Part shown: positions 19,299-57,409 of the stretch, in pieces
Position numbering within the stretch: the first letter of the stretch is position 1
Layout: the number at the start of each line of letters is the position of its first letter
Origin: Sphingomonas sanguinis
GTDB lineage: Bacteria > Pseudomonadota > Alphaproteobacteria > Sphingomonadales > Sphingomonadaceae
Assembly: GCF_019297835.1 (NCBI RefSeq)
Contig: NZ_CP079203.1
Span: 1,151,001-1,215,000, forward strand
DNA: 64,000 bases
Direction: 5' to 3'
Notes under the pieces: model-generated
Databases searched by the model: none
What the model saw: only the letters and a program-made list of their open reading frames with translations
What the model was told of the DNA's origin: nothing
Made by a program: the position numbers and the translations under genes

Positions 19299-19314
19299 AT
19301 GACAAGTTCGTCAT
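19299..19314. promoter_or_regulatory. ATGAC-N6-GTCAT palindrome, box A
   Basis: ATGAC-AAGTTC-GTCAT, centred 34 bp from box B. It lies 134 bp upstream of mprF and 163 bp upstream of the PDZ gene. The form equals the E. coli CusR box (ATGACAAnnTTGTCAT). Confidence 0.6.
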
Positions 19315-19332
19315 CCACTCATCCCGCTCTTC

Positions 19333-19348
19333 ATGACAGAAGCGTCAT
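19333..19348. promoter_or_regulatory. ATGAC-N6-GTCAT palindrome, box B
   Basis: ATGAC-AGAAGC-GTCAT, in the 311-bp divergent region of mprF and the PDZ/RR/HK operon. The 34-bp spacing to box A is about three helical turns. Confidence 0.6.
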
Positions 19349-19476
19349 GCTTCGCCCACTCTCCCCTCAGATCATGTGGGGTAGGACGGTGGCGTGAAAG
19401 GATCGCTGCTCCCCGCTGCATGTGGCAAGATGGCCGTCGCCGTGCCGGGACGGCGCGTGCGCGATCGGGGGCCGCG

Positions 19477-19905
19477 ATGAAGAGCTTGCGGATCGTCGGC
19501 TGGAGCGCCGGAATGGCGGCGCTGATCGGCGGAGCGGCCTTTGCGCTGCTGGTCGGGCATATGCCGCTTCATGCCGGACCACACCGTCCCTCGACGCTGT
19601 ACGGCGCGACCTTCGCCCCGGTGGCGGAGGGACGCCCGGGCCTGGTCGTCACCAGCCTGCGCAGCGATGTCGACGACGATGCCGCCGCGTTGGTCAAGCC
19701 GCCGCTGCATGTCGGCGACATGGTCCTGTCGGTCGATGGCCGCCCGGCAACCTCCTTCGCGATGCTGCGCGACGAAGCCACGCTGTCCAGCGACACGCCT
19801 TTGCGCCTTCAGGTCGCGCGCGACCATGGCCTCCTCACGATCACGCTGCTAAGGAGCGGCTCGGGAGGACAGCGTGGCCAACAGGATTTTGCTGATCGAA
19901 GATGA
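19477..19905 (+). CDS. Membrane-anchored PDZ-like protein upstream of a two-component pair
   Basis: A 142-residue protein with an N-terminal membrane segment (IVGWSAGMAALIGGAAFALLVG) and a PDZ-like periplasmic part: PGLVVTSLRSDVDDDAAALVKPPLHVGDMVLSVDGRP has the carboxylate-loop-to-strand order of a PDZ fold. No protease domain. Its end overlaps the start of the response regulator by 32 bases, so it belongs to the same operon. It may sense or modulate the kinase from the periplasm; that is inference. Confidence 0.75.
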   Translation: MKSLRIVGWSAGMAALIGGAAFALLVGHMPLHAGPHRPSTLYGATFAPVAEGRPGLVVTSLRSDVDDDAAALVKPPLHVGDMVLSVDGRPATSFAMLRDEATLSSDTPLRLQVARDHGLLTITLLRSGSGGQRGQQDFADRR

Positions 19906-20563
19906 CCGCTCGACGGCGGATTACATCGCCAACGGCTTGCGGGAAGAGGGTTTTCTGATCGACCATGCGGCCAATGGCCGCGACGGCCTTTTCCACGCCA
20001 CCGACGGCACTTACGACTGCATCATTCTCGACCGGATGCTGCCCGGCATGGACGGCATGTCGGTGCTGGCCGCGATCCGTGCGGCGGGGATCGAATCGCC
20101 GGTCCTGATCCTGTCGGCCCTGTCCTCGCCCGAGGACCGGGTGGCGGGCCTGACGTCGGGCTCGGACGATTACCTGACCAAGCCCTTCGTCTTCGCCGAA
20201 CTGCTCGCACGCGTCCGCCTGCTGATCCGGCGCGGCGGGACCACCGGCAATGCACCCCAGACCAAGCTGGTGTGCGACGATCTGGAGATGGACCTGCTCG
20301 CCCATCGCGTCCGTCGCGCGGGCAAGCCGATCGACCTGCAACCGCGCGAATACCGGCTGCTCGAATATCTACTCCAGCATGTCGACCAGGTCGTGACCCG
20401 CACCATGTTGCTGGAGGGGGTGTGGGATTTCCATTTCGACCCCAACACCAATGTCACCGACGTGCATATCAGCCGGTTGCGCAAAAAGATCGACGAGGGC
20501 TTTGCCCGTCCACTGCTCCATACGGTGCGCGGTTCGGGCTATAAGCTGGGGGTCGAGAAATAG
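19874..20563 (+). CDS. OmpR/PhoB-family response regulator (CusR/CzcR-like)
   Basis: A 229-residue regulator starting at GTG 19874 after GGGAGGAC. Receiver domain 1-120: acidic pair ED/D10-11, phospho-acceptor D53 (IILDRMLPGMDG), K103 (YLTKPF). Winged helix at about 130-226 (LQPREYRLLEYLLQHVDQVVTRTMLLEGVWDFHF; VTDVHISRLRKKID). The layout is close to heavy-metal regulators such as CusR and CzcR. It is coupled to the kinase that follows. I infer that it binds the ATGAC-N6-GTCAT boxes, including those before its own operon. Confidence 0.92.
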   Translation: MANRILLIEDDRSTADYIANGLREEGFLIDHAANGRDGLFHATDGTYDCIILDRMLPGMDGMSVLAAIRAAGIESPVLILSALSSPEDRVAGLTSGSDDYLTKPFVFAELLARVRLLIRRGGTTGNAPQTKLVCDDLEMDLLAHRVRRAGKPIDLQPREYRLLEYLLQHVDQVVTRTMLLEGVWDFHFDPNTNVTDVHISRLRKKIDEGFARPLLHTVRGSGYKLGVEK

Positions 20564-21915
20564 CACCGGCGGTCCTCCGCTCGACCACGCTGCGGTTCGC
20601 GCTGCTGGTCTTCGCGCTGCAACTGATCGGCGCAGGGGCGATGGTGGTCATGGTTCGCCACCTGACCCGCAGCGAGATCACGGCGCAGGCCGAGGATGCC
20701 GCCAGCGACCTGCGCGACGAGCTGTCGGGCATGTGGCTGTCGGGCGGGCAAAAGGCCGTGCGTGCGGCGGTCGACCGGCGGCTGACCACCGACCGGCTGC
20801 CCTTGTCGGTCATCCTGCTGACCGATGCGCAGGGGCGCTTCGTGGCGGGCAATATCGCCGAATGGCCGCCCAACGTTCCTGCGCCGGGCGCCGCGACGAT
20901 CGAGATTTTCCGCATCGGCCATTCGCTGCCCGAAAGGATGCGGGTGATGGCGACCCGCCTGCCCGATGGCTCGCGGATGCTGGCGGGCCATGTCGTCGAG
21001 AGCGAGTTGCGCGTCGCGCTGGCCATGGAAGAGGCGATGGCGGTCGGCATGGCGGCGGCGATCGTGCTGGCCGCGCTCGCCGCCTGGATCGCCGCGCGGA
21101 TGATCGAGCGACGGCTGGAGGATACGGTCGCCACCGCCCATGCGGTCGCCGCAGGGGACTTGTCGCGCCGTGTCGCACCCAATGGCGGTGACGATGCCTT
21201 CGACGCGCTGGCGCAGGCGGTCAATGCGATGCTCGACCGGATCGCCCTGCTGATGACCGAGCTGAAGGTCGCGACCGACGGGCTGGCGCATGATCTGCGT
21301 TCGCCGCTGACCCGACTGCGTTCGACGCTGGACCGCGCGCTGGCGGAAAGCCGGGACGAGAATGCGCGCGTGGCGGTCGGCCGGGCGCTGGAAGAAGGCG
21401 ACCGTCTGCTCGCCATGCTCGACACCGCGCTCCGGATCAGCCGGGCCGAGGCGGGGCTGGGCCGCGACGCCTTTGTCGATGCCGATCTGGGCGCGATGAT
21501 CCGCGACGTGGCCGACATGTTCGAGCCGCTGGCCGAGGATCGCGGCATGACCATCCGCGCCGAGGGGCCGGAGACTTTGGTAGCACGGGTCCACCGCGAA
21601 TTGCTGGGTCAGGCGATCGCCAATCTGATCGACAATGCGCTGAAATATGGCGCGGGCGGAGTCGTCGTCCGGGTGGAGCCGGGGCCGGTGCTGATCGTCG
21701 CCGATGACGGGCCGGGCATCCCGGAAGAGCGCCGAGACGAGGCGCTGAAGCGGTTCGGGAGACTGGACGCCGCGCGGACGGAGAGCGGTGCGGGCCTGGG
21801 CCTGTCGCTCGCCAGCGCGGTGGCGCATCTGCATGGCGGCACCGTAGCGCTGGAGGATAATGCGCCGGGGTTGCGGGTACGCTTGACGCTCGCCCCCGAC
21901 GTACGTTCCGCCTGA
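20560..21915 (+). CDS. Sensor histidine kinase, partner of the OmpR-type regulator
   Basis: Membrane kinase with TM1 (LRFALLVFALQLIGAGAM), a periplasmic part of about 110 residues, TM2 (MAAAIVLAALAAWIAA), HAMP, H-box GLAHDLRSPLTRLRS, N-box NLIDNALKYG, and G-boxes DDGPGIPE and GAGLGLSLA. The first ATG (20641) would cut TM1 in half. The frame is open from 20545, and the only well-placed start is AUA at 20560, overlapping the regulator's TAG as AUAG with GGGGG upstream. I give that start; it is non-canonical and uncertain. Confidence 0.85.
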   Translation: MAPAVLRSTTLRFALLVFALQLIGAGAMVVMVRHLTRSEITAQAEDAASDLRDELSGMWLSGGQKAVRAAVDRRLTTDRLPLSVILLTDAQGRFVAGNIAEWPPNVPAPGAATIEIFRIGHSLPERMRVMATRLPDGSRMLAGHVVESELRVALAMEEAMAVGMAAAIVLAALAAWIAARMIERRLEDTVATAHAVAAGDLSRRVAPNGGDDAFDALAQAVNAMLDRIALLMTELKVATDGLAHDLRSPLTRLRSTLDRALAESRDENARVAVGRALEEGDRLLAMLDTALRISRAEAGLGRDAFVDADLGAMIRDVADMFEPLAEDRGMTIRAEGPETLVARVHRELLGQAIANLIDNALKYGAGGVVVRVEPGPVLIVADDGPGIPEERRDEALKRFGRLDAARTESGAGLGLSLASAVAHLHGGTVALEDNAPGLRVRLTLAPDVRSA

Positions 21916-21948
21916 ACTTCCCCGCCCTCCGCCTAACCTACCCCCCAA

Positions 21949-22035
21949 CCTCCGTTCAGCCTGAGCGAAGTCGAAGGCCACGCCAGATCATAGCGGCGGG
22001 ACGTGTGCTTCGACTTCGCTCAGCACGAACGGAGG
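21949..22035. repeat. GCTTCGACTTCGCTCAG-type inverted repeat, copy 2
   Basis: CCTCCGTTCAGCCTGAGCGA and the facing arm TGCTTCGACTTCGCTCAGCA, with CGAACGGAGG closing the stem. It sits between the convergent kinase and GH18/NodB/GT2 genes. Confidence 0.85.
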
Positions 22036-22042
22036 TAGGATA

Positions 22043-22105
22043 CCATTCCTCCCCAAGCTCTATTTGGGGAGGGGGCCCGCCCGACGGAGCCGGGTGGTGG
22101 AGGAG
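22043..22105. repeat. Second palindromic element after the kinase gene
   Basis: CCTCCCCAAGCTC...TTTGGGGAGG forms a hairpin, followed by GCCCGACGGAGCCGGG. Likely stops transcription of the gene ending at 22114. Confidence 0.6.
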
Positions 22106-22113
22106 CAATGCCC

Positions 22114-25100
22114 CTACGCCCCCACATTCCCCGTCCGCTCCAGCTTGCCCCAGCCAACGATCCATCCGCCGATCGCCGAGCTGATCGCGCGCAGCACGAC
22201 CCAGTACATGATCTGGCGATAGACCAGCCGCTGCGCGACCAGCAGATGAGCCGGATAGCGGACCCGGTTGCCGTCCAGGCGATAGGCGAGCCAGCCGCAC
22301 AGCACATCGACCGAGGTAAAGACGGTCCAATAGGCCGCCATCTGGAACACGTCGGTCTGCGTCTGCGCCCAGCCATGCTGGCCGACGCGCACCGCCGTCC
22401 CGATGACGGACAGGACCAGCGCCAGGTCGATCAGCGGCGAGATGGCGGCAAACAGGATCTGGAACAGCCAGGCCTGCGGCAGGCCGATCCGTGCCTGCCC
22501 GGCGGGCTTGCCGGTGCGCAACACGCTGCGGTGCTTCCACAGGCATTGCAGCGTGCCGAACGCCCAGCGATAGCGCTGCTTGGCGAGCGCGCGGAAGCTT
22601 TCGGGCGCTTCGGTCCACGCGACGGCGCGCGGGTCATAGGTCACGCGCCAGCCCGCCCGCTGGATCGCGATGGTCAGGTCCTGATCCTCGGCCAGCGTAT
22701 CCTCCGGATAGCCGCCCACCGCATCAAGTGCGGCGCGACGCCACGCCCCGACCGCGCCCGGCACCACCGTCATCGCGTCGAACCCGGCAAGCGCGCGGCG
22801 TTCCAGATTCTGCGCGGTGATATATTCGACCGCCTGCCAGCGGGTGACGAGGTTGACCCGGTTGCCCACCCGCGCATCGCCCGCCACCGCGCCCAGCTTG
22901 GGATCGGCGAACCAGCGCGCGAGCTTGGCGATCGTCTGCGGCTCGAACTGGGTATCGGCATCGAGCGCGATCAGCACCTCGCCGGTCGCATCCTGAAGCG
23001 CGCGGTTCAGCGCCGCCGCCTTGCCGCCGTTAACGAGCGTCAGCAGGCGGACGCGTGGTTCGTCGGCGAATGCCTGGCGCACCACTGCGCTCGTCCCGTC
23101 CTTCGACCCGTCATCGGCGACGATCACCTGCAGACCCGGATAGTCGCTGGCCAGCACCCGCTCGACCGACCGGACGATCACCCGCTCCTCGTTATAGGCG
23201 GGGATGATGACCGAGACGCTGGGGGTGAAGGCGGGCGGGACCGGCTTGGATTTGCGCCCCTGGAACCAGGCGAGCCCCGCCATAACTACCGCGCGCGCGA
23301 TGCCGAGCGCGATGGCGAGATAGAAGAGCCAGGCGAGCGAGGCCGACAGGAAGGCCAGCACGACGAAGATCGCGACGTCGGTGCGCACCGCCAGCAGGTC
23401 ATGCCCCTCGACCAGCGGCATCGCCTGATCGCGGCTGACGCCGACCAGTTGCGAGGCGGGGACGAACTTGTAGCCCTCGGCGCGCAGCGTATCGATGATG
23501 CGGGGCAGCGCCTCGACCGTCTGCTCGCGGTCGCCGCCGCCATCGTGCAGCAGGACGACATTGGCCGAATTGTCGGGCGTCGCGCCGTGCACCTGATCGA
23601 TCGTCTGCTGGACGATCGCGTCGGTGCCGGGCCGCTGCCAGTCGTTCGGATCGACGTGAAGGCCGACGACCGTATAGCCCAGATTCTGCGCGATCAGGGC
23701 GGGATCAATCTCGTCCGCCGTGGTCGGCTCGGCGTCGCCGAAATAGGGCGCACGGAACAATGTGGTCGAACGGCCGGTATAGGCCTGGATCAGCCGCTTG
23801 GTCGCGTTCAACTCCAGCTTGATCGTCCGCTCGCCGGTCGTCGCCATGTTGGGATGGGTGTAGCTGTGATTGCCCAGCTCGCTGCCGTCCGCAACGATCC
23901 GGCGGAGCAGCTGCGGGTGTTGCAGGGCATTCTCGCCGATCACGAAGAATGTGGCGGGCACATGCTCGCGCTCCAGCACGTCCAGTATCTTGGGCGTCCA
24001 TTCCGGATCGGGCCCGTCATCGAAGGTCAACGCGATCGTCTTCGGGACCGCACCCGCCCGCTGCACGACATAGGGCGTGGGATAGGTGCGATAGACCTCG
24101 TTCCGGATGACACCGTCCTTGTCGTATTTCAGCCCGCGCTCGCCCTGGGTCGGCTGGGCGGTGATGCGCAGGATCTCCCCCGTCCCCTCGACGTCGACGT
24201 TCAGCGGCGAGGCGATGGCGCCCAGCCGGGGGATGACGCCGCGCGCGGTGCTACGAAAAGCGGCGAAGTCGGCCCAGAGACCGGGGTCTTCCGATCCCAG
24301 CTGCCAGAAGGCGACGTCATCGATACCCAGCCGCTTCAGCGCCTGAAGCTGGTTCCAGCTGGTCGCGGCGTCGAGCATCCAGACGGTGTGGTGCTCGCCA
24401 TTCTCGTCATAGGCGAAACCGGCATTGCCGCTGGCCTGGTCGAACGTCACCTTCGCCTGGCTGTCATGCGCGATCAGCCAAGCCTCTTCGATCGAGCGGG
24501 CTTCGGCCGGCCCCTTGGCGGGCCAGTCATAGCCATAGCTGCCCAACGCCACGATCAGCTTGTCGCGACCGACCTCGCGCAGCGCCTTTTCCGAGGATTG
24601 CAGGAACCAGGGCTGCGCCGCGATCGGGCCGGGCGTGCCCGTCTGCCAATGCTGGTCGTAAGCCATCAGGATGATGCGATCGACGACCTTGGCCAGCCGC
24701 TGCAACTGCCACGCCTCGTCCTCGGCGGGGACGGTGACGGCCAGGACGGTGCCCTTGGGCAGATGCGCCTTGATCCGCTGGAGCAGCCGTGGATAGCCCG
24801 CCATCGCGCTGGCGGGCAGATTCTCGAAGTCGATGACCAGGCCCGACTGGCGGTTGACCGTCACCGACTGGCCGAGCTGGGTCGCCAGCTTCTCGGAGGC
24901 CGCCGGGCTGGCGATCATCCGCGCGATGGTCTGGCCGTCCCATTCGTCGTCGGACAGGTTCTGCACCATCGGCAACAGGCGCGGCGGCTTGGCGGCACGC
25001 GACAACAGCGTGGCGAGCTTGGGATCGTTGTTGATCGCCAGCTGTCCCTTCGGACCCGACACGTTCATCAACGACGGCACCAGCCAGTCGATCTGGCCCA

Positions 25101-25416
25101 TATGCGCATGGAGCGAGGCCAGCGCGGAGTCGTTGCCCGGCGTGTAGAAGGCAATGGTCAGCGGCGTATGCCCCTGCGCCACCGACTTGCGCGGCAGCCA
25201 CTCGCCGCGCCGCCCCTTCAGCTGCGCGGTCGGCTCCAGCGTCATCGCCTGCCGCCGGGCGAAGGGCAGAGGCAGCACGCCCGAATTGGGCACCGCCACC
25301 AGGGTCGTGGCAAAGGCGATGGCGGCGACCACCACCGCCAGGATCGTCACCGCGACGGCGCGTCGTGCCCAGGTGCCCCGACGGCCCGTCGGGTCAAAGA
25401 AGATCGGGTTGCTCAA
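22114..25416 (-). CDS. GH18-like / NodB deacetylase / GT2 synthase fusion
   Basis: An 1100-residue three-domain membrane enzyme. One anchor (about 20-42) is followed by a GH18-like domain at 80-400, where SGLVIDFENL keeps D196 and E198 of the DxxDxDxE motif but has lost the first two Asp. The NodB deacetylase at 455-660 is complete (TFDDGP 464-469, HSYTHP 517-522, RAPYFGD, LLHDGG). After helices at 680-718 comes the GT2 domain at 730-960 (DDG 768, DAD 819, EDQD, QRYRW 947-951) and C-terminal helices. This resembles PgaB plus PgaC in one chain; I infer synthesis and deacetylation of a beta-linked GlcNAc-like polymer. Confidence 0.9.
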   Translation of the reverse strand: MSNPIFFDPTGRRGTWARRAVAVTILAVVVAAIAFATTLVAVPNSGVLPLPFARRQAMTLEPTAQLKGRRGEWLPRKSVAQGHTPLTIAFYTPGNDSALASLHAHMGQIDWLVPSLMNVSGPKGQLAINNDPKLATLLSRAAKPPRLLPMVQNLSDDEWDGQTIARMIASPAASEKLATQLGQSVTVNRQSGLVIDFENLPASAMAGYPRLLQRIKAHLPKGTVLAVTVPAEDEAWQLQRLAKVVDRIILMAYDQHWQTGTPGPIAAQPWFLQSSEKALREVGRDKLIVALGSYGYDWPAKGPAEARSIEEAWLIAHDSQAKVTFDQASGNAGFAYDENGEHHTVWMLDAATSWNQLQALKRLGIDDVAFWQLGSEDPGLWADFAAFRSTARGVIPRLGAIASPLNVDVEGTGEILRITAQPTQGERGLKYDKDGVIRNEVYRTYPTPYVVQRAGAVPKTIALTFDDGPDPEWTPKILDVLEREHVPATFFVIGENALQHPQLLRRIVADGSELGNHSYTHPNMATTGERTIKLELNATKRLIQAYTGRSTTLFRAPYFGDAEPTTADEIDPALIAQNLGYTVVGLHVDPNDWQRPGTDAIVQQTIDQVHGATPDNSANVVLLHDGGGDREQTVEALPRIIDTLRAEGYKFVPASQLVGVSRDQAMPLVEGHDLLAVRTDVAIFVVLAFLSASLAWLFYLAIALGIARAVVMAGLAWFQGRKSKPVPPAFTPSVSVIIPAYNEERVIVRSVERVLASDYPGLQVIVADDGSKDGTSAVVRQAFADEPRVRLLTLVNGGKAAALNRALQDATGEVLIALDADTQFEPQTIAKLARWFADPKLGAVAGDARVGNRVNLVTRWQAVEYITAQNLERRALAGFDAMTVVPGAVGAWRRAALDAVGGYPEDTLAEDQDLTIAIQRAGWRVTYDPRAVAWTEAPESFRALAKQRYRWAFGTLQCLWKHRSVLRTGKPAGQARIGLPQAWLFQILFAAISPLIDLALVLSVIGTAVRVGQHGWAQTQTDVFQMAAYWTVFTSVDVLCGWLAYRLDGNRVRYPAHLLVAQRLVYRQIMYWVVLRAISSAIGGWIVGWGKLERTGNVGA

Positions 25417-25620
25417 CGGTGTCGATCCTTGGTCAAATACGCAAACGGCGTGGCGGTCCCACTTACCCCCGACCGCTTAAGCCCGCGTTTCCATCGGACA
25501 GCCGATGGCAGATCACGGACATAGAGCGGGTGATCGCAACATTACAGATTTTTCATGACACCCCCGCTTCTCCTTCATCCAATCCGTGACAAGGATTGCC
25601 GACGGATATTAGGACACGTC

Positions 25621-26364
25621 ATGGTCGAACTTCTCGCCCGCCTGCGCTCCAGATGGCGCCTTATGCTTGGCGGTGCGCTGGTGCTGCTTGCTGCAATTGC
25701 CGCTATCGTTCTCTATTCGGGCAGTTATTTCGACAAGGATCCGTTCACCCGCTTTTCGGCGCAGGGCAGGGTCCAGCCGATCCTCGTGCTGTCGCTGTCG
25801 GGCGACATGGGCCTGCGCTACGGTATGGGCGGGGTGATCGCGCGCGCGCTGAGCGCCGACGGGATCGAGGTGATGGGCGTCAACTCGCCGGTGCTGTTCC
25901 GCAAGCGCCGCACCGCCGCGCAGGTGAATGCGGTGATCGCCGACCTGATCCGCCGCGCCGAGGCGGAACGCGGCGACCGCAAGCTCGTGCTGCTCGGCCA
26001 GTCCTATGGCTCGGACATGCTTCAGACGGGGCTGGCGCACCTGCCCGCCGATCTACGCGCGGCCATTTCGGCGGTCGTGCTGGTGGTTCCGGGCGAGACG
26101 GCCTTTTTCCGCTCCGATCCCTCGGGGCTGGCTTATATGGGCAAGCCCGACAGCGTCGCGATCACGACCGCGCGGCAGATCGACTGGGTGCCGATAACCT
26201 GCATCTACGGCGTGCGCGAACCGGACAGCCTGTGTCCGCTGTTGAAGCAGCCCAATGTCCGCGTCGTCGCCCTGCCCGGCGGCCATTATCTGGACCATGA
26301 CGACGCCGCGCTGGTCGCGCATGTTGAGGCCGCGGTGCGCCGCGCCCCCTCCCCCGCCACATGA
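25621..26364 (+). CDS. VirJ/AcvB-type serine hydrolase, putative lysyl-PG hydrolase
   Basis: A 247-residue protein with an N-terminal anchor (RLMLGGALVLLAAIAAIVLY) and a periplasmic alpha/beta-hydrolase domain of the VirJ family. LLGQSYGSDML places the nucleophile at S128 and LPGGHYLDHD the His at 222. Agrobacterium AcvB, of the same family, hydrolyses lysyl-PG made by LpiA, and lpiA-acvB are neighbours there. Here mprF is 6.5 kb away on the other strand. Only the VirJ-like part is present, not the extra N-terminal domain of AcvB. Start chosen at ATG 25621 after AGGA. Confidence 0.82.
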   Translation: MVELLARLRSRWRLMLGGALVLLAAIAAIVLYSGSYFDKDPFTRFSAQGRVQPILVLSLSGDMGLRYGMGGVIARALSADGIEVMGVNSPVLFRKRRTAAQVNAVIADLIRRAEAERGDRKLVLLGQSYGSDMLQTGLAHLPADLRAAISAVVLVVPGETAFFRSDPSGLAYMGKPDSVAITTARQIDWVPITCIYGVREPDSLCPLLKQPNVRVVALPGGHYLDHDDAALVAHVEAAVRRAPSPAT

Positions 26365-26385
26365 CGGCGGAGGGGTTCGTGGCGA

Positions 26386-28056
26386 TCAGGCGGTGATCGC
26401 CTCGATCGGCGTATCGCTGCCCTTGCGCGTCCGCCACACGGCGGCACAGTCCACCGCATAGGGTTTGGCCAGCACCGTCGACACCGTCATGTAGCGCGCG
26501 GTGGCGGTATCGCGGGTCAGCGTCAGGTACAGATAGCCCTTGTCGTCCTGATCGCAGAAACGGACGACCTTCGGATTGGCCGCCGCGATCTCGCGTCCGA
26601 TGCCGGGCATCAGGTCGCCCCAGGACGGGCTGGTGACGGACGTGCCCGCGAACTCCGCCGCGACCAGCTTGCCGTTGGCGTCATACAGGTCGTTGGCCCA
26701 GGCGGCATGGCTGTCGCCCGAGACGACGACCGGCCGCGATCCTGCGCGCTGGAACGCGGCATAGAGCCGTTCGCGCGCCGCCGGATACCCGTCCCAGCTG
26801 TCGAAATTCAGCGGCAGGCCCGCGCGATACGAAGCCTGCGCCTCGCCCAGTTGCAGTCGCTCGCCTTCGGAAAGGCGGGCGGTCAGCTTCGCATAGCCCT
26901 CTGGCCCCATCTGCTTTTCTAGGTCGGGGCCGTCGATCCGCGCCATCACCACCTGATTGCCGATGACCTGCCACGGCGTCCCCGCCTTGACCGAGGCGCT
27001 TAGCGTCCGCTCGATCCAGCCGAGCTGCCCCGCCCCCAGCAATTCGCGGTCAGGCCGCGCCCGCTCGGCCATCATCGCGGCATATTCACCGGGTTCGGGC
27101 GCCTCACCCCTGGCGCGCACCTGCTTCGAACGGGCGAGCAGCCGCGTTTCCAGCATCACCAGCGTCGCGAGATCGCCGAAATCGAAGCTGCGGTTGATCG
27201 CCTCCCATGGCTGGCCGGGCCGGGGATCGCGAATCGGCATCCATTCGAAATAGGCCTGCATCGCCGCCGCCTTGCGCTTGCCCCAGTCGCCCTCGGTCGC
27301 GGGCTGGTGATTCTCCGCGCCGCCGATCCAGTCGTCATTGGCGACCTCATGATCGTCCCACACGCAGATGAAGGCGGCGCGGGCATGGGCGGCCTGCATG
27401 TCGGGATCGCGCTTCACCTGGGCATGGCGCTGGCGATAATCGGCGAGCGTCACGATTTCGTGCGCAGGCTCGGGCAGGCGGTTCAGCTGATGGCCGGTCT
27501 TCGTACCATAACCGTCCGCGCCATATTCATAGATATAGTCGCCCAGATGGACCACCGCGTCGAGCCGCTCGGTCTTCGCAATCGCGTCATAGGCGTTGAA
27601 CAGGCCGCCCGGATAAAGCTGGCACGACACCACCGCCAGCGCCAGTTCCTCGAGCCGCCCGCGCGGCAGGGTGCGGAAGCGGCCCTCGGGCGAGCGCTGG
27701 CCGCCCGCCGTCTCGAACCAGTAGCGATAGTCGCGGCCCGGTTGCAGGCCCGCCACCTCGACCTTGGCGGTAAAGTCGCGGGCGCCGCGCGCCGTGACCC
27801 GGCCGGTGTGCAGCCCGACCGCATCGCCGCCGCCGATCGGCGCGACATGCCAGGTCAGGGCGATATCGCCGCCCTGCCCCTCGGGCGGTGTCGCGCGGGT
27901 CCACAGGATCGCGCCGACCGGCGACGGATCGCCACTGGCGACCCCATGGTCGAAGCGAACCGCCGGAGCCGCCGCCTGCGCCAGCGTCGTCGGCAGGGCC
28001 AGGCTCGCCCCGCTCCCCATCAGCGCGATCGCGCGGCGTCGGTTCATCATCGTCAT
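26386..28056 (-). CDS. phoD: PhoD-family alkaline phosphatase
   Basis: A 556-residue Tat-exported phosphodiesterase/phosphatase starting at ATG 28056 (AAAGGA upstream); the open frame continues upstream without a credible start. Leader RRRAIALMGSGASLALP. Metal-site motifs: VSCQLYPGGLFNAY, HLGDYIYEYGADG, WDDHEVANDDW and SGDSHAAW. Known members use Ca/Fe and release phosphate from phosphoesters in the periplasm. It is divergent from a TonB receptor; a possible Pho box lies 61 bp upstream. Confidence 0.92.
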   Translation of the reverse strand: MTMMNRRRAIALMGSGASLALPTTLAQAAAPAVRFDHGVASGDPSPVGAILWTRATPPEGQGGDIALTWHVAPIGGGDAVGLHTGRVTARGARDFTAKVEVAGLQPGRDYRYWFETAGGQRSPEGRFRTLPRGRLEELALAVVSCQLYPGGLFNAYDAIAKTERLDAVVHLGDYIYEYGADGYGTKTGHQLNRLPEPAHEIVTLADYRQRHAQVKRDPDMQAAHARAAFICVWDDHEVANDDWIGGAENHQPATEGDWGKRKAAAMQAYFEWMPIRDPRPGQPWEAINRSFDFGDLATLVMLETRLLARSKQVRARGEAPEPGEYAAMMAERARPDRELLGAGQLGWIERTLSASVKAGTPWQVIGNQVVMARIDGPDLEKQMGPEGYAKLTARLSEGERLQLGEAQASYRAGLPLNFDSWDGYPAARERLYAAFQRAGSRPVVVSGDSHAAWANDLYDANGKLVAAEFAGTSVTSPSWGDLMPGIGREIAAANPKVVRFCDQDDKGYLYLTLTRDTATARYMTVSTVLAKPYAVDCAAVWRTRKGSDTPIEAITA

Positions 28057-28117
28057 CGTGTCGGTCCTTTCGGCCCGGACGGCTAGGCCCGCCACGCGAC
28101 AGCGCGATGGCGGAGCC

Positions 28118-28135
28118 GTGACGGTTTGGCGACAG
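28118..28135 (-). promoter_or_regulatory. Possible Pho box upstream of phoD
   Basis: On the minus strand CTGTCGC-CAAA-CCGTCAC has the 7-4-7 layout of the PhoB site (CTGTCAT repeated), with three mismatches in fourteen. It is oriented toward phoD and also lies in the receptor's upstream region. Confidence 0.4.
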
Positions 28136-28228
28136 CCCCCATTGTCATCGAAATGCAACATGGTGGACACCGACTGGTAATCCCCTATCCGTAAGGGACG
28201 CCGCAAACGGGGTAATATCGGGGGCATC

Positions 28229-47911: not shown

Positions 47912-47943
47912 AAAAAGGCCGCCGATCCCTCGACCGGCGGCCC
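47912..47943 (-). terminator. Terminator of lon
   Basis: On the minus strand GGGCCGCCGGTCG pairs with CGGCGGCC and is followed by TTTTTC, just after the lon stop. Confidence 0.85.
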
Positions 47944-47957
47944 TTCGCTTGCGACGA

Positions 47958-50384
<2,427 letters not shown>

Positions 50385-50519
50385 GCAAACTCCGGTGGCC
50401 CTGATCGGGGCCTCTTCGCATCTATATATGGGGAGGGTTGCCGATCCATCAATTCCCGGTGCGACAAGCCGCGAAAGGATGGCTTGCCAAGCCCGGCGGC
50501 TTACGCAAAAACCTTCGAC

Positions 50520-52274
50520 ATGGATCGTATACGGAATGCCGCTCTAGCGCTGCTCGCCTCCACGTTTCTCTGTGCCGCGCCGTCCGGCGCCCAGACGCCT
50601 AAGGCCTTGCCGGGCAAGGGAGAGCCGCCGCTGACCGCGCAGACCATGATCTCCGGCGGCGTCCGCCCGCCCGAACAGCTCGCCGTCCGCTTCGACCGCG
50701 CCGACCTGTCGTTCGAGGTGCTGCCCGATACCGAAGAGTTGAACGGCATTGCGGTGCTGGACTTTACCGCAAAGTCGCCGCTGGCCCGGCTGGTGGTCGA
50801 TCTGGACAGAAATCTGCCGGTCAAGGCGATCGTGATCGACGGCAAGCCGCTGAAAGCCGGCGCCTGGTCCAACCCGGAGGGTCAGTTGGTCATCACCCTG
50901 CCCCGCCCGCTCAAGGCCGGGCAGAAGGTCAGCGCGAAAATCACCTATGGCGGCACGCCCCATGTCGCGGTGCGAGCGCCCTGGGATACCGGCGTCGTCT
51001 GGGCCAAGACGCCCGACGGGCGGCCATGGTTCGCGACCACCGATCAGGGCTATGGCTGCGACCTGCTCTGGCCGTGCCTCGACTATCCGATGGGCGAGCC
51101 GGGGCTCGTCACGCTCCACATCACGGTGCCCAAGGGGTTGAAGGCCCCATCCAACGGCGTGTTGCTGGGCGTCGATACGCTGCCCGATGGGCGGACCCGG
51201 TGGAACTGGCGGACGAAGCATCCGAACACCTATGCCATCTCGCTGACCGTCGGTCCCTATGAGGTGGTCGAGGGCAAGTATAAGAGCCGCTTCGGCAACA
51301 CGATCCCGATGTTCTACTGGTATCTGCCGGGCGAGAAGGAGAAGGCGGAAGGGCTGTTCGCCGAATTCGCGCCGACGCTGGATTTCTTCGAGTCGACGGT
51401 CGGCCCCTTCCCCTTCGGCGACGAGAAGCTGGGTGTGGTCGAGACCCCGCACAAGGGGATGGAGCACCAGACCATCAACGCGTACGGCAATGAATATGCC
51501 AAGGCGCCCGAGGGCTTTGACTGGCTGTTCCAGCATGAGTTCAGCCATGAGTGGTTCGGCAACCAGCTGACCAATGTCGACTGGGACGATTTCTGGCTGC
51601 ACGAGGGCTATGGCAGCTATATGCAGCCCTCCTATGGCCGCTGGCGCGAGGGCGAGGCGCGCTATGCGGTGATGATGGACGCGCAGCGCGGGCAGATCGC
51701 GAACAAGTCGCCCATCGTCCACGACCGCAGCATGACCGAACAGGATGTCTATGAAGAGGCCAAGGGCGGCCCCGGCCTGGACATCTATATGAAGGGGTCG
51801 TGGATGCTGCACACGCTCCACAACCTGATCGGGGACAAGGCGTTCTGGGACGTGACGCGGCTGGCCGTCTATGGCCGCACCGATCCCAAGCCGGGAAATT
51901 TCACGCCGCGCTATGGCTCGACCAAGGAATATGAAGGCTTCGTCCGGCAGGTGACGGGCAAGGATTATGGCTGGTTCTTCGACGTCTATCTCCGTCAGGC
52001 GGCGCTGCCCGAGATCGTCGAGACGCGCAGTGGGGGCCAGCTGACGCTGACGTGGAAGGTGCCGGGTGGCGGGCCTTTCCCGCTGCCGGTCGAGGTGCAG
52101 GTCGGCGACAAGGTCGAAACGCTGCCGATGACGGACGGCACCGGCACGCTGACAGTGCCTGCGGACGCGCATGTGGTGGTCGATCCCTGGGCGAAGGTGC
52201 TGAAGCGCTCCGTCGCGATCGAGCAGTTCCGGGCGTGGAAGGCGGAACAGGCGGCGAGGAAGAAGGCCAATTAA
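50520..52274 (+). CDS. M1-family metallopeptidase, exported
   Basis: A 584-residue aminopeptidase-like enzyme from ATG 50520 with signal peptide to near 24 (APSGAQT). The beta-sheet N-domain ends near 270; the zinc site is H339-E340-FS-H343 with E362 (HEFSHEWFGN then WLHEGYGSYMQP). The exopeptidase motif reads GMEHQT instead of GAMEN, as in several periplasmic M1 members. It lacks the large C-terminal helical domain of PepN. It probably trims peptides in the periplasm. Followed by a palindromic repeat. Confidence 0.92.
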   Translation: MDRIRNAALALLASTFLCAAPSGAQTPKALPGKGEPPLTAQTMISGGVRPPEQLAVRFDRADLSFEVLPDTEELNGIAVLDFTAKSPLARLVVDLDRNLPVKAIVIDGKPLKAGAWSNPEGQLVITLPRPLKAGQKVSAKITYGGTPHVAVRAPWDTGVVWAKTPDGRPWFATTDQGYGCDLLWPCLDYPMGEPGLVTLHITVPKGLKAPSNGVLLGVDTLPDGRTRWNWRTKHPNTYAISLTVGPYEVVEGKYKSRFGNTIPMFYWYLPGEKEKAEGLFAEFAPTLDFFESTVGPFPFGDEKLGVVETPHKGMEHQTINAYGNEYAKAPEGFDWLFQHEFSHEWFGNQLTNVDWDDFWLHEGYGSYMQPSYGRWREGEARYAVMMDAQRGQIANKSPIVHDRSMTEQDVYEEAKGGPGLDIYMKGSWMLHTLHNLIGDKAFWDVTRLAVYGRTDPKPGNFTPRYGSTKEYEGFVRQVTGKDYGWFFDVYLRQAALPEIVETRSGGQLTLTWKVPGGGPFPLPVEVQVGDKVETLPMTDGTGTLTVPADAHVVVDPWAKVLKRSVAIEQFRAWKAEQAARKKAN

Positions 52275-52292
52275 CGGCCATCCCATTACCCA

Positions 52293-52392
52293 CCTCCGTT
52301 CGCACTGAGCGAAGTCGAAGTGCACGCCCCGAGCCAATGTTCTTGGCGGCGTTCATCCCGCGGCCTTTGACTTCGCTCAGGCTGAACGGAGG
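52293..52392. repeat. GCTTCGACTTCGCTCAG-type inverted repeat, copy 3
   Basis: Arms CCTCCGTTCGCACTGAGCGA and TTGACTTCGCTCAGGCTGAA close to CGGAGG, with a 40-bp centre. It lies between the convergent M1 and antiporter genes. Confidence 0.85.
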
Positions 52393-52433
52393 GTGGGTCC
52401 AGGGAGTTGGCATCTACGGAACGGAGGTCGAGT

Positions 52434-53561
52434 TTACGGCACGACCGTCACGAAGAGATACGCCGCAAAGATCACCAGATGCACCGCGCCGCCCAGCACG
52501 GTCGTCCGCCCATTGCCCAGCGTCAGCGTGATGGTGAACAGCGACAGGACCAGCAGGATCATCTGCTTGGCCCCGATCCCCAGTGCCAGCGGCAGGCCCA
52601 GCATCAGCGACACGATCGCCACCGCCGGAATGGTCAGCCCGATGGTCGCCAGTGCCGAGCCCAGCGCGAGGTTCAGGCTGGTCTGAAGCCGGTTCCGCTT
52701 GGCCGCCCGGTACGCCGCCAGGCTCTCGGGCGCCAGCACCAGCGCCGCGATCACCACGCCGACGATGGCCAGCGGCAGGCCCGCCCCCAAGATCGCCGCC
52801 TCGACGATGCCCGACAGCCCCTTGGCCAGCAGGACCACCCCAACAAGCGCGACCAGCAGCATGCCGAGCGCCGCCCAAGCCGCCGCATTGGTCGGCGGCT
52901 CGGCATGGGCATCGGCGGGCATGTCCTCGTCGGCGGGCAGGAAGTAATCGCGGTGCCGCACCGTCTGCACCATCACGAAGGTGCCATAGAGGATGACGCT
53001 GACGATCGCGACGAAGACCAGTTGCGACGTCGCATAGGTCGGCCCCGGCGCGGACGAAACGTAGTTGGGCAGGACCAGCGACAGCACCACCATCGCCGTC
53101 AGCACGTTGAGCGACGAACTGGCCCCCCGCAGCGAAAAGCGCTGCTCGCCATGTTGGAATCCCCCGGCGAGCAGGCACAGCCCGACGATACCGTTCAGGA
53201 TAATCATGATCGCCGCGAACACCGTGTCGCGCGCCAGGCTGGACGCGTCGCCCGCATCGGACAGCATCAGGCTGACGATCAGCGACACCTCGATCACCGT
53301 CACCGCGACCGCCAGGACCAGCGTTCCGAACGGCTCGCCGACCCGGTGCGCCACGACCTCCGCCTGATGGACCGCCGACAACACGCAGCCGAACAGGATC
53401 ACGGCGGCTACGACCACCCCGACCGTCCCCATTGTGTAGAGCGACACCGCGATAGCGAGCAGGCCCAGGATTGGGAACACCAGGGTCCACCAGGGCATCA
53501 GCAAACGCTGGAGCAGCGCGCGCTTCTGTCCGGCGGTGACGATGGCGTCGGGTTCGCTCAT
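52434..53561 (-). CDS. Calcium/cation:proton antiporter, ChaA-like
   Basis: A 375-residue CaCA-family antiporter with about 11 helices in two halves. The two alpha repeats read GEPFGTLVLAVAVTVIEVSLIVSLML and NLALGSALATIGLTIPAVAIVSLMLG; each holds the acidic/Ser residues of cation transport. It matches ChaA-type Ca2+(Na+,K+)/H+ exchangers. An acidic loop (DEDMPADAHAEPP) sits between the halves. An ATGAC-N6-GTCAT box lies 33 bp before the start codon, suggesting regulation by the two-component pair at 19.9 kb. Confidence 0.85.
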   Translation of the reverse strand: MSEPDAIVTAGQKRALLQRLLMPWWTLVFPILGLLAIAVSLYTMGTVGVVVAAVILFGCVLSAVHQAEVVAHRVGEPFGTLVLAVAVTVIEVSLIVSLMLSDAGDASSLARDTVFAAIMIILNGIVGLCLLAGGFQHGEQRFSLRGASSSLNVLTAMVVLSLVLPNYVSSAPGPTYATSQLVFVAIVSVILYGTFVMVQTVRHRDYFLPADEDMPADAHAEPPTNAAAWAALGMLLVALVGVVLLAKGLSGIVEAAILGAGLPLAIVGVVIAALVLAPESLAAYRAAKRNRLQTSLNLALGSALATIGLTIPAVAIVSLMLGLPLALGIGAKQMILLVLSLFTITLTLGNGRTTVLGGAVHLVIFAAYLFVTVVP

Positions 53562-53594
53562 GGCTGGTTTCTTCTCCTCAACGTGACGGGGATA

Positions 53595-53610
53595 ATGACA
53601 TCCCTGTCAT
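53595..53610. promoter_or_regulatory. ATGAC-N6-GTCAT palindrome before the antiporter
   Basis: ATGAC-ATCCCT-GTCAT, 33 bp upstream of the antiporter start and near its expected promoter. Identical arms and spacing to the boxes at 19299, 19333 and 57394. Confidence 0.6.
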
Positions 53611-53676
53611 GCCAATGCGCCAACCGCCCTGTTGGGTCCCGACGCGAACAGATTCGTTGCGATAGGACAACAACTG

Positions 53677-53736
53677 CCCTCACCCTTCCCTCTCCCGCTG
53701 GGAGAGGGAGGCGCAAAGCGCCGGAAGGGTGAGGGT
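53677..53736. repeat. CCCTTCCCTCTCCC..GGAAGGGTGAGGG element, copy 2
   Basis: CCCTCACCCTTCC and GGAAGGGTGAGGG close an outer stem around the hairpins CTCTCCC-GCT-GGGAGAG and GGCGC-AAA-GCGCC, a three-way form. It sits directly after the stop of the RibD-like gene. Confidence 0.8.
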
Positions 53737-53738
53737 CG

Positions 53739-54440
53739 CTAGGCCAACGCCGCATTCTCCACCCTGTAACGCAGCCAGACCTCACCATCCGGCAGCACCT
53801 CGTGATGGGTCAGCATCAGCCCGGTCAGCGGTGCGGGCGTATCCGCGTCCTGATCCGCCGAATGGAACAGGCTGGGCGCGCCCGCCGCACCGTCGATCGC
53901 GGGGCAGAGCGCCATGCTGATCTCATCGATCAGCCCGGCGCGCAAGAATTCGCCATTCGCCGTACCCCCGCCCTCGACCAGCAGGGTCTTTACACCTAGT
54001 TCCCGGTTCAGAATTTCGGGAACCGCGCGCAGGTCGATCGTCTCCGCGCCCGCAAACATATAGGACACCCCGTCGCCACGCAGCCCGGCCAGATGCGCAT
54101 CCGACACCGCCTCGGTCAGGATGACGACGATCGGATCGCCACCAATATCGCTTCGGCCCCAGACGATCTTGCCCTGTTCGTCCAGCACGACGCCGAACGC
54201 GTCGGCCTCACGGGTCGCGAACCAGTTTTGACGCGGGAAGCTCTCGTCCGTATCAGGATAACGGTCGCCCTTGGCGAATTCCTGCCCCGTTACCCGTCCG
54301 ACGATCCACGCGTCGCCGCCGATCCGGTCGTGCAGGTCCTCGAAGAGTTCACCGGGCTTGTAGCTCTCGGGCCGCCAACGGCTTTGCAGGATGCGCCCGT
54401 CGAGGCTGCAAATCATGTGGCAGATCATATGGGGTTTCAT
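53739..54440 (-). CDS. RibD C-terminal-type reductase
   Basis: A 233-residue member of the RibD_C / DHFR-like reductase family from ATG 54440 (AGGAGA upstream). MICSLDGRIL opens the NADPH fold; WIVGRVTGQEFAK, VKTLLVEGGGTANGEFLRAGLIDEISMALCPAIDG is the classic signature. It lacks the deaminase half of RibD, so it is a stand-alone reductase; the substrate (pterin, flavin intermediate or other) is unknown. Confidence 0.87.
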   Translation of the reverse strand: MKPHMICHMICSLDGRILQSRWRPESYKPGELFEDLHDRIGGDAWIVGRVTGQEFAKGDRYPDTDESFPRQNWFATREADAFGVVLDEQGKIVWGRSDIGGDPIVVILTEAVSDAHLAGLRGDGVSYMFAGAETIDLRAVPEILNRELGVKTLLVEGGGTANGEFLRAGLIDEISMALCPAIDGAAGAPSLFHSADQDADTPAPLTGLMLTHHEVLPDGEVWLRYRVENAALA

Positions 54441-54488
54441 CGCGGCATCTCCTGTTCGGAGCGGCAACGCGTCGACAGAGCCCAATAT

Positions 54489-54507
54489 CCTCCCCTGTAA
54501 GGGGAGG
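54489..54507 (-). terminator. Hairpin after the GNAT gene
   Basis: CCTCCCCT-GTA-AGGGGAGG, just past the stop of the acetyltransferase gene on the minus strand. No strong T run. Confidence 0.45.
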
Positions 54508-54512
54508 AATGT

Positions 54513-55106
54513 TTATAGCCCGCCGACCGGCCGGATCATCGACCAGAAGCGTGGACCGCCCTTGGGCACCGACCATTCCCCGGTCAGTTGGAAGCCCAGC
54601 CGCGCATAAAGCCCGACATTGCTCTCGGTCGCCGTCTCCAGATAGGCGGGCACGCCATCGGCATCGCACCGGGCCAGCCCGGCCCGGATCGATGCACCGC
54701 CCAACCCCCGTCCCTGCCGCGCCGGATCGACGCCCGCGATATGCAGATACCAGAAAGGCCCGCTCGGGAAATGTGCCTCGATCGCATCGCCCAGCCGCAT
54801 CGCGCGGGGCAGTGACGCCCCCAGCGCGTGCAGCACCGGGATCAGCCGCCGGACAAAGGCCATGGTCGGCACATGCGCCTGCCCCGGCGGTCGCCAGAAG
54901 GTCCCGGCATCCGCCGCGTCGCTGACCAACCGCATCCCCACCGCGTCACTGTCGAACAGTAGCGCAAACAGGCGCGGCAAGCGCTTCGCCCGGTCGGCCG
55001 CATCGGGAAAGATATAGGACATGGCTGGATCGTCGGCAAAGGCGCGGCCCAGCATCATCGCCACCGCCGCCCGGTCGCCGGCTCCCGCCTCACGCATCGT
55101 CACCAT
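54513..55106 (-). CDS. GNAT-family N-acetyltransferase
   Basis: A 197-residue acetyltransferase from ATG 55106 (GAGG six bases upstream). Acetyl-CoA site HIAGVDPARQGRGLGGASIRAG with the R-Q-G-R-G-L-G motif A near 130; YLETATESNVGLYARLGF is motif B. The acceptor substrate is unknown. It lies between clpX and the RibD-like gene on the same strand but clpX has its own terminator. Confidence 0.9.
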   Translation of the reverse strand: MVTMREAGAGDRAAVAMMLGRAFADDPAMSYIFPDAADRAKRLPRLFALLFDSDAVGMRLVSDAADAGTFWRPPGQAHVPTMAFVRRLIPVLHALGASLPRAMRLGDAIEAHFPSGPFWYLHIAGVDPARQGRGLGGASIRAGLARCDADGVPAYLETATESNVGLYARLGFQLTGEWSVPKGGPRFWSMIRPVGGL

Positions 55107-55142
55107 CGCATTCCTCATACGAAACGGGCCTCACACGAAAAC

Positions 55143-55167
55143 GGGCGCTTCCCATGGGGAAGCGCCC
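55143..55167 (-). terminator. Terminator of clpX
   Basis: GGGCGCTTCCC pairs with GGGAAGCGCCC; on the minus strand it is followed by GTTTTCG. It lies 30 bp past the clpX stop. Confidence 0.85.
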
Positions 55168-55197
55168 GCCATCAAATTCCAGACGTCACATGCCCGA

Positions 55198-56472
55198 TCA
55201 GGCGGCCGCGTCGTCCTTCTTCTTCGCCTTTTCAGCATAGACGCGGATCGGTTCCTTGCGGCCCTCGACCACGTCCTTGTCGACCATCACCTCGTCGACG
55301 CCGTCCATGCCGGGCAGGTCGAACATGGTATCGAGCAGAATGCCCTCCAGGATCGAGCGAAGCCCGCGTGCGCCGGTCTTGCGCTCGATCGCCTTCTTGG
55401 CGACCGTGGTCAGCGCATCGTCGGTGAAGTCGAGCTCGACGCTCTCCATCTCAAACAGTTTCTGATACTGCTTGACCAGCGCATTCTTCGGCTCGGACAG
55501 GATCTTGACCAAGGCCGCGATGTCAAGGTCCTCGAGCGTCGCGATGACCGGCAGACGGCCGACGAATTCGGGGATCAGGCCGAACTTGAGGAGATCCTCC
55601 GGCTCGGTCTGGCGCAGATATTCGCCCGTCCGCTTTTCCTCAGGCGCCGCGACATAGGCGCCGAAGCCGATCGACTTGCCCTGCAGACGATCACCAATGA
55701 TCTTTTCCAGACCCGCAAACGCACCGCCGCAGATGAACAGGATGTTCGTCGTGTCGACTTGCAGGAATTCCTGCTGCGGATGCTTACGCCCGCCCTGGGG
55801 CGGAACGCTGGCGGTCGTGCCTTCCATCAGCTTGAGCAGCGCCTGCTGAACGCCCTCGCCCGACACGTCGCGGGTGATCGAGGGGTTCTCGGCCTTGCGG
55901 CTGATCTTGTCGATCTCGTCGATATAGACGATGCCGCGCTGCGCCCGCTCGACATTGTAATCCGATGCCTGGAGCAGCTTCAGGATGATGTTCTCGACAT
56001 CCTCGCCGACATAACCGGCCTCGGTCAGCGTCGTCGCGTCCGCCATGGTGAACGGCACGTCGAGGATACGCGCCAGCGTCTGCGCCAGCAACGTCTTGCC
56101 GCAACCGGTCGGGCCGACGAGCAGGATGTTCGACTTGGCGAGTTCGACATCGGCGCCCTTCGCACCGTGGTTCAGGCGCTTATAGTGGTTGTGCACCGCG
56201 ACCGACAGGACACGCTTGGCCTGCTTCTGCCCGATGACATAGTCGTCGAGCACGTTGCAGATTTCCTGCGGCGTCGGCACGCCACCATCCTTCTTGGAGA
56301 CAAGCGCGGACTTGGTCTCCTCACGGATGATGTCGTTGCACAGCTCCACGCACTCGTCGCAAATGAAGACGGTCGGCCCCGCGATCAGCTTGCGTACCTC
56401 GTGCTGCGACTTGCCGCAGAACGAGCAATAGAGGGTGCTTTTCGAGTTGCCACCGCTCACCTTGTCCATCAA
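55198..56472 (-). CDS. clpX: ClpX, ATPase subunit of ClpXP
   Basis: A 424-residue ClpX. Zinc-binding domain with C16, C19, C38 and C41; Walker A GPTGCGKT 120-127; Walker B IVYIDEID; ClpP-docking loop (IGFG) and the pore loop (GYVG) are present. It unfolds substrates such as ssrA-tagged proteins for ClpP. It follows clpP on the same strand with a 109-bp gap that holds a hairpin. Confidence 0.97.
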
Positions 56473-56510
56473 TCACCTCTCGCACCTATGAAGCGGTGCG
56501 CTACCGTTGC

Positions 56511-56536
56511 CGGGGTGCGCATCGTACCGCACCCCG
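56511..56536. other. Inverted repeat between clpP and clpX
   Basis: CGGGGTGCG and CGCACCCCG form a nine-pair stem with a short loop, in the clpP-clpX gap. No T run follows, so it may be a partial terminator or mRNA-processing hairpin. Confidence 0.5.
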
Positions 56537-56581
56537 ATAAAGTCACAATCGAAATAAAACGTTCACGCTGAACGACCCGTC

Positions 56582-57271
56582 TTACGCCGCGGTCGACGCG
56601 TCGTCCGCCGGGGTCGGACGCTTGTCGAACACCTGGTCGATCAGGCCGAATTCCTTGGCCTCCTCGGCGCTCATGAACTTGTCGCGGTCCATCGCACGCT
56701 CGATTTCCTCCAGCGGCTTGCCGGTGTACTTGGCGTACAGCGTGTTCAGGAAGTGCCGCATGCGCAGGATCTCGCGCGCCTGGATCTCGATATCGGCCGC
56801 CATGCCCTGCGCCCCGCCCGAAGGCTGGTGGATCATGATGCGGCTGTTCGTGGTCGCCACGCGCATGCCCGGCTCACCGGCCGACAGCAGGAAGCTGCCC
56901 ATCGAAGCGGCCTGGCCGATGCAGAGCGTGCCGACGCGCGGACGGATATACTGCATCGTGTCATGGATGGCCATGCCCGCCGTGACGACACCGCCCGGCG
57001 AGTTGATGTACATGTAGATATCCTTCTTCGGATTTTCCGACTCAAGGAACAGCAGCTGCGCGCAGATCAGCGAGGCCATGCCGTCCTCGACACCACCGGT
57101 GACGAAGATGATGCGCTCGCGCAGCAGGCGGCTGAAGATATCGAACGACCGTTCGCCGCGGTTCGACTGTTCGATGACGATCGGAACCAGCCCGGCCTGC
57201 GTCTGCTGCAGCCCGACGCCAGCATGGGCCAGCGGGCTCGCGAAATCGCCGGTCTCGAACGGATTGTGCAT
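56582..57271 (-). CDS. clpP: ClpP protease subunit
   Basis: A 229-residue ClpP, a little longer than the usual 200-210 because of an acidic/Ala tail. Catalytic triad: S123 ([14 protein letters not shown]), H148 ([10 protein letters not shown]) and Asp further on ([12 protein letters not shown]). The tetradecameric serine peptidase works with ClpX. In most proteobacteria tig lies just upstream; here two genes intervene. Confidence 0.97.
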
Positions 57272-57393
57272 GGAATTCTCTCTTATGCCCAGAAGAGCCC
57301 CTATGTCGCGTGGTGGCCGCGCATATTCAAGCCCCGTCAGCCGACCCCGCGTGCCGGGACGCGGCGTTTACCCTTTTTTCCCGCGCATCGGTT

Positions 57394-57409
57394 ATGACGG
57401 AACCGTCAT
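57394..57409. promoter_or_regulatory. ATGAC-N6-GTCAT palindrome before the polytopic protein
   Basis: ATGAC-GGAACC-GTCAT, 26 bp upstream of the start at 57436 and 122 bp upstream of the divergent clpP. Same arms and spacing as the other three boxes. Confidence 0.6.

Follow-up and report, generated by a model that had tools for sequence, protein, structure and literature searches.

Four identical copies of the palindrome ATGAC-N6-GTCAT stand outside the accepted genes of a 64,000-nucleotide stretch of the Sphingomonas sanguinis genome (contig NZ_CP079203.1, positions 1,151,001 to 1,215,000; hereafter the window). The question raised by this locus is whether these boxes are the operators of a two-component system and, if so, which genes they serve. 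An earlier note on this DNA had proposed a two-component regulon in the window, controlled by the response regulator (here RR-A) encoded beside two of the boxes. From sequence comparison, a two-component regulon is well supported; it is genome-wide instead of a feature of the window, and it is possibly shared by RR-A and a second regulator, RR-B. We assign a probability of about 0.77 to the reading that the palindromes are putative operators of one or more CusR-type regulators with a genome-wide envelope and transport regulon.

Occurrence of the palindrome in the window and in the genome

The window contains exactly four exact copies, located as the earlier note had reported (Table 1). Shuffled versions of the window contained 0.02 copies on average, and none of 100 shuffles gave four. 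Allowing one mismatch added four further places. In the whole genome (two contigs, 4.37 Mb), 20 exact copies were found. The other spacings of the same two words served as the control; the reversed pattern was dropped because its words are rarer, which makes it too weak a control. ATGAC/GTCAT pairs with spacers of 0 to 30 numbered 176, with a mean of 5.2 for each of the other 30 spacings, and the probability of at least 20 copies at this expectation is about 6e-7. Among 100 of the 176 places, those listed, spacing 6 accounted for 11 copies, followed by spacings 4 and 21 with seven each. As the motif was picked from the window, the rest of the genome provides the fairer test, and it holds 16 exact copies (P about 9e-5). 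The genome-wide count with one mismatch, 242, was not used.

The earlier note had also suggested counting intergenic versus coding copies across the genome. Genes were called by a simple codon-usage caller trained on the window genes. Of the 20 copies, 16 fell outside called genes, 14 of them clear of any called open reading frame (ORF) and two touching an ORF end (C1:259526, TonB receptor; C1:518412, DUF808/LysR); these two, and similar sites in relatives, were judged non-coding. One copy, at C1:2883900, lies near the start of an ORF of 452 amino acids (aa) and was rated ambiguous because this ORF offers later possible start codons. The final split was 15 copies before genes, one ambiguous and four inside genes. 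The coding copies, in genes named from their translations as homoserine-kinase-like, MFS transporter, FliL-like and Pcm-like, agree in number with the expected background.

Anatomy of the sites

The non-coding copies favour the form ATGAC-R-N4-Y-GTCAT, which was found in 13 of 16 non-coding and in none of four coding copies of this genome (Fisher p 0.007; the 16 include the ambiguous C1:2883900, which violates the rule). All four window boxes fit it. Three close relatives (G307, G249 and G317) carry 64 exact copies, and the rule holds for 36 of the 43 classed as non-coding and 3 of the 21 classed as coding. Pooled over the four genomes, the figures are 49 of 59 and 3 of 25; the Fisher value of about 1e-9 overstates independence, since the copies share ancestry. 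In 50 aligned segments (49 sites from the four genomes, selected for a clear target), the first spacer base is A/G in 90% and the last is C/T in 96%, and no other strong position appears beyond the arms and these spacer ends.

The conserved sites allowed 22 comparisons between this genome and a relative, and in these 42 of the 132 spacer positions differ. The arms in these comparisons were fixed by the site search; thus, the box before the ChaA-like antiporter gene, fetched by protein, is the unbiased case. Its arms are exact in all seven close genomes, with the spacer changed at 6 of 36 positions. Among the more distant ChaA loci, none of 23 had an exact box and one had a box with one mismatch; the control spacings gave 0, 1, 1 and 0 in the 30 loci read, of 72 found.

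These data bear on the explanation that the copies come from chance and coding bias, ATGAC and GTCAT being common words, or from a dispersed repeat. Such a background does exist, at about five copies per spacing and with 4 of the 20 copies in genes, but the copies are in excess at spacing 6 and outside genes, the spacer ends follow the R-N4-Y rule, the flanks of different sites are unrelated to each other, and the spacers drift between genomes. For the box set as a whole, this explanation is refuted, and we regard it as highly improbable; for box 4 and the copy at C1:2883900, a chance origin is possible. A reading of the boxes as RNA hairpins or cruciforms was dropped because their folding is weak (z from -0.6 to -1.9).

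The FliL-like coding copy recurs in three relatives (L284, L301 and L317) as well as in this genome (L015), where it violates R-N4-Y. It is probably kept by the protein sequence.

Two candidate regulators

RR-A carries the domains PF00072 and PF00486 and has a kinase gene next to it, which identifies it as an OmpR/PhoB-type response regulator. The earlier note had called it CusR/CzcR-type. This stands insofar as its best NCBIfam match is TIGR01387 (the cztR/silR/copR heavy-metal regulators), but the score of 246.9 bits is below the curated cut-off of 279.2, which none of the 14 TIGR01387 matches in the genome (E 1e-40) exceeds. RR-A shares with E. coli cusR, as a trait of the TIGR01387 type, an ATGAC-N6-GTCAT box beside its own operon. 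Its neighbours are mprF, a PDZ gene, a histidine kinase (HK) gene and a gene for a GH18/deacetylase/GT2 protein, with no adjacent copper, silver or zinc efflux genes. Among named species, the nearest with this locus is Sphingomonas parapaucimobilis, whose regulator is 99% identical.

The closest paralog of RR-A is RR-B (C1:3479367-3480053), 58% identical, with its own kinase and, from a reading of the neighbourhood, near a guaA-like gene. In a tree of 91 sequences that included other regulators of this genome, CusR and HprR, the two form sister clades (pair support 0.885). The RR-A clade comprises 45 RR-A sequences and one Chakrabartia sequence (support 0.96), and the RR-B clade comprises 26 sequences (support 1.0). 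A box with at most one mismatch was found within 1.2 kb upstream in 25 of 42 RR-A loci (control spacings 1, 1, 6 and 2), three of the 45 loci (L158, L194 and L199) having been left out. For RR-B, with 26 of 50 loci read, a box at this threshold stood within 0.5 kb upstream in 22 (control spacings 1, 1, 0 and 0). The autoregulation suggested in the earlier note is supported by the boxes upstream of RR-A orthologs, and its choice of RR-A as the controller agrees with the boxes at the RR-A promoter; however, the boxes at the promoter of RR-B give this regulator an equal claim.

A rival explanation takes up this claim: RR-B would be the principal regulator for the boxes across the genome, with RR-A acting mainly on its own locus and mprF. 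The higher frequency of the box at RR-B loci speaks for it, as does the presence of RR-B without RR-A in 34 of 121 sampled Sphingomonas genomes. In the box-rich clade, however, the box of RR-B itself has drifted, with one mismatch in G000 and G222 and two in G307 (three genomes read), whereas both boxes of RR-A are exact in five of seven clade genomes and within one mismatch in all seven. We consider this rival unlikely. Control of about fifteen promoter sites by one or both of RR-A and RR-B is probable from the sequence pattern.

A third response regulator (C1:2201860-2202525, L167) shares 87% identity with its counterpart in G249. In G317 and G249, an exact box lies about 119 bp before the gene (relatives' loci L286 and L309). 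This genome has only a two-mismatch variant, further upstream. The gene may be a regulated target.

Distribution among the sampled genomes

Seven genomes with an RR-A at least 97% identical carry 19 to 25 exact sites each. The other 114 of the 121 sampled genomes have at most 13, with a median of 5. On these counts, the wide exact-form regulon is a trait of one clade, because the numbers outside it are low and independent of the regulators. Elsewhere, the site may be less strict or the regulon small, or the boxes may fall within genes or serve another factor.

Several observations weigh against the regulon as we read it. In the 114 genomes outside the clade, the number of boxes is unrelated to the presence of RR-A or RR-B, with medians of 4.5 for genomes with RR-A, 6.5 for those with RR-B only and 5.0 for the rest (p 0.72 and 0.10). 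A response-regulator match at E 1e-60 was equally frequent in 20 high-count and 20 low-count genomes (six in each group), which were hand-picked at the two extremes of the range in the family. Seventeen of the 42 RR-A loci have no box within one mismatch; L140, with only 179 bases upstream, is scored among them, and several others show two-mismatch variants at a constant place (L148, L153, L154, L156 and L157, near -990). The seven close genomes in which the ChaA box is kept are near kin and not independent. Additionally, no sigma-70-like promoter was found in the mprF/PDZ divergent spacer, and no fixed-distance promoter element (-10/-35) was seen after the boxes in the 50 aligned segments.

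Some box-rich genomes, G087 with 21 boxes among them, lack a close relative of RR-A, and this also favours a different explanation, in which an unrelated regulator binds the boxes and both response-regulator genes are among its targets. Other factor families also use short palindromes, and binding by either candidate is a prediction. Against such a regulator, two sister regulators have this box form before their genes, and it recurs at E. coli cusR, whose product is a 46% relative of RR-A. We therefore judge it improbable, and retain the CusR-type regulators as the candidates.

Predicted targets in the window

The features of the window are given in Table 1. RR-A is linked to mprF in the seven close genomes and at four more distant loci; that the linkage was unseen at the remaining RR-A loci says little, because the flanks were short. 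The spacer between mprF and the PDZ gene is boxed in this genome, G307, G249 and G317, in G307 only with one mismatch. The PDZ start was taken at the onset of the hydrophobic leader. Box 2 itself opens with an ATG from which the same frame reads through without a stop, and translation might instead begin within this putative operator. The match of the PDZ-like protein to PF00595 (E 1.4e-4, 22.6 bits) is slightly below the cut-off of 23.2. HK-A, whose start is uncertain, matches TIGR01386 with 172 bits, under the cut-off of 292.55. The operon adjoins a gene (22114-25416) for one 1100-aa protein with GH18-like, polysaccharide deacetylase and GT2 domains.

Table 1. Boxes and neighbouring genes in the window (positions of the window; bits are scores against the named family model).
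Feature	Position	Strand	Remarks
Box 1 (ATGACAAGTTCGTCAT)	19299..19314		mprF-side box of the mprF/PDZ-RR-HK divergent spacer; seven close genomes: five exact, two with one mismatch
Box 2 (ATGACAGAAGCGTCAT)	19333..19348		34 bp from box 1, on the side of the PDZ-RR-HK operon; seven close genomes: six exact, one mismatch in G307
Box 3	53595..53610		33 bp before the ChaA-like gene
Box 4	57394..57409		between clpP and the 472-aa protein gene; unconserved
mprF, lysylphosphatidylglycerol synthase/flippase	16571..19165	-	NF033480, 932 bits (cut-off 600)
Small PDZ-like protein with hydrophobic leader	19477..19884	+	first gene of the operon; PF00595 match
RR-A, OmpR/PhoB-type response regulator, CusR-like	19874..20563	+	
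HK-A, sensor histidine kinase	20557..21915	+	HAMP, HisKA, HATPase_c; open frame as searched, first ATG 20641
ChaA-like cation/proton antiporter	52434..53561	-	PF01699; TIGR00846, 247 bits (cut-off 317)
clpP	56582..57271	-	PF00574; divergent neighbour of box 4
472-aa polytopic protein	57436..58854	+	no Pfam match; doubtful target

The earlier note had named mprF, the ChaA-like antiporter and the gene after box 4 as targets. With boxes kept in close genomes, mprF and the antiporter gene are probable targets, and the distance from box 3 to the antiporter start was as the note had given it. The box is so near this start codon that repression of the ChaA-like gene is possible.

Box 4 is the weakest of the four. 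The 26 bp reported between it and the 472-aa gene hold if the start is 57436, whereas the start favoured by the gene caller lies further in, 131 bp from the box. This gene, between clpP and a GT2 gene, is present in 2 of the 121 sampled genomes. G307 has the gene but no box before it, and in four genomes without the gene (G265, G249, G317 and G262), no box with up to two mismatches was found within 400 bp before clpP. Control of a glycosylation-related gene, as the earlier note had it, is thus unsupported, because box 4 is conserved in none of the five relatives checked and lies beside so rare a gene. Since it fits R-N4-Y, it may be a recent gain.

Predicted targets elsewhere in the genome

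Besides mprF, the PDZ-RR-HK operon and the ChaA-like antiporter, the boxed genes comprise, by Pfam, three TonB-dependent receptors, an RND-type adaptor, a DUF808 protein, an S10 peptidase adjoining an M1 peptidase, two AI-2E transporters, PhoX and a DUF4136 protein. From a reading of the flanking ORFs (not Pfam), the adaptor is followed by pump and outer-membrane genes. Three boxed genes have no Pfam match: those for a 151-aa protein, the 472-aa protein and a 194-aa ORF located 327 bp from the ambiguous C1:2883900.

Across this genome, G307, G249 and G317, an exact box precedes the DUF808 gene, one AI-2E transporter and the ChaA-like gene in all four; the RND-type adaptor, the S10 peptidase, two TonB receptors and the 151-aa protein in three; and PhoX, the other AI-2E transporter and the DUF4136 gene in two. 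The 16 non-coding sites of this genome are exact in G317 (nine), G249 (nine) and G307 (seven). The target set appears to be turning over between relatives, because only about half of these sites are exact elsewhere. The M1 gene has a box to itself in G249, and both G249 and G307 have one before a gene named from its translation as an M3-like peptidase.

Comparison with known systems

The earlier note had likened the palindrome to the E. coli CusR box, and E. coli K-12 does carry ATGACAATTTTGTCAT, of the ATGAC-N6-GTCAT form, in the cusR-cusC spacer. A related form, ATTAC-N6-GTAAT, occurs as ATTACAAAATTGTAAT in the hprR-hiuH spacer. CusR and HprR have targets in common and bind one and the same DNA, though with unequal affinity (PMC8249747). 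Like CusR and HprR, RR-A and RR-B are OmpR-type paralogs, and RR-A too has boxes in a divergent spacer next to its own operon (RR-A is 44% identical to HprR). The Sphingomonas systems differ from CusR/CusS and HprR/HprS in having about 15 promoter sites, an extra PDZ gene and a target set dominated by envelope, TonB, antiporter and lipid genes. No copper-efflux cluster was recognised among the box targets, which include an RND-type efflux operon.

The site form of CusR/HprR is wide, because it precedes regulators in two other genomes: ATGACAAATTTGTCAT stands 73 bp upstream of a 49% RR-A relative in Limnobacter humi (L091), and ATTACAATTTTGTAAT 136 bp upstream of a 48% relative in Allopusillimonas (L100).

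A second parallel is UzcR/UzcS of Caulobacter. Its site is the partly palindromic CATTAC-N6-TTAA, its regulon is wide, including TonB receptors, multidrug efflux and peptidases (PMC8963506, PMC12864828), and UzcR mainly activates (PMC8963506). UzcR resembles the Sphingomonas system as an alphaproteobacterial regulator with a broad envelope-type regulon, a likeness of site form and target set; the arms are ATTAC in Caulobacter and ATGAC here. A 55% relative in Phenylobacterium (L065) has no AT[GT]AC-N6-GT[CA]AT within one mismatch in 900 bp upstream, CATTAC-N6-TTAA not being scanned. In the portions of the literature searched, we found no described Sphingomonas regulon of envelope, cation and lipid functions like this one. 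A sphingomonad envelope system named EsrSR was considered and set aside, as no mention of it was found in that literature.

Proposed mechanism and significance

Building on the observed sites, their promoter bias, the kept ChaA arms and the boxes upstream of both regulators, we propose that a dimer of a CusR-type response regulator would bind the two arms of the consensus ATGAC-R-N4-Y-GTCAT. RR-A would be phosphorylated by HK-A, and RR-B by HK-B. Through both boxes of the mprF/PDZ spacer, RR-A would control its own operon and mprF; it may also bind as many as 14 other places with one box each, most of them promoters of envelope or transport genes. RR-B would recognise the same kind of box and, on the CusR/HprR model, may share targets. 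Phosphorylation would lead to activation, in parallel with UzcR and with K-12 CusR, which is annotated as an activator. The UzcR-like target set suggests envelope or metal stress as a possible signal, and the gene order prompts the guess that the PDZ protein is a periplasmic reporter modulating the kinase.

More tentatively, and with the odds somewhat against it, the duplicated sister systems may have kept one 16-bp site, while the copy linked to mprF and PDZ took on a large envelope regulon in one clade by repeated gain of boxes, with the PDZ protein reporting envelope damage to the kinase.

The analysis offers a concrete Sphingomonas regulon with envelope, cation and lipid functions, including putative sites, targets and two candidate regulators. 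Through the similar form of the site, it links the narrow enterobacterial copper regulators to the broad UzcR-like envelope regulons of alphaproteobacteria. If the history of repeated box gain is true, this would be a rare and tractable case in which a regulon can be traced site by site as it expands once its regulator has been duplicated.

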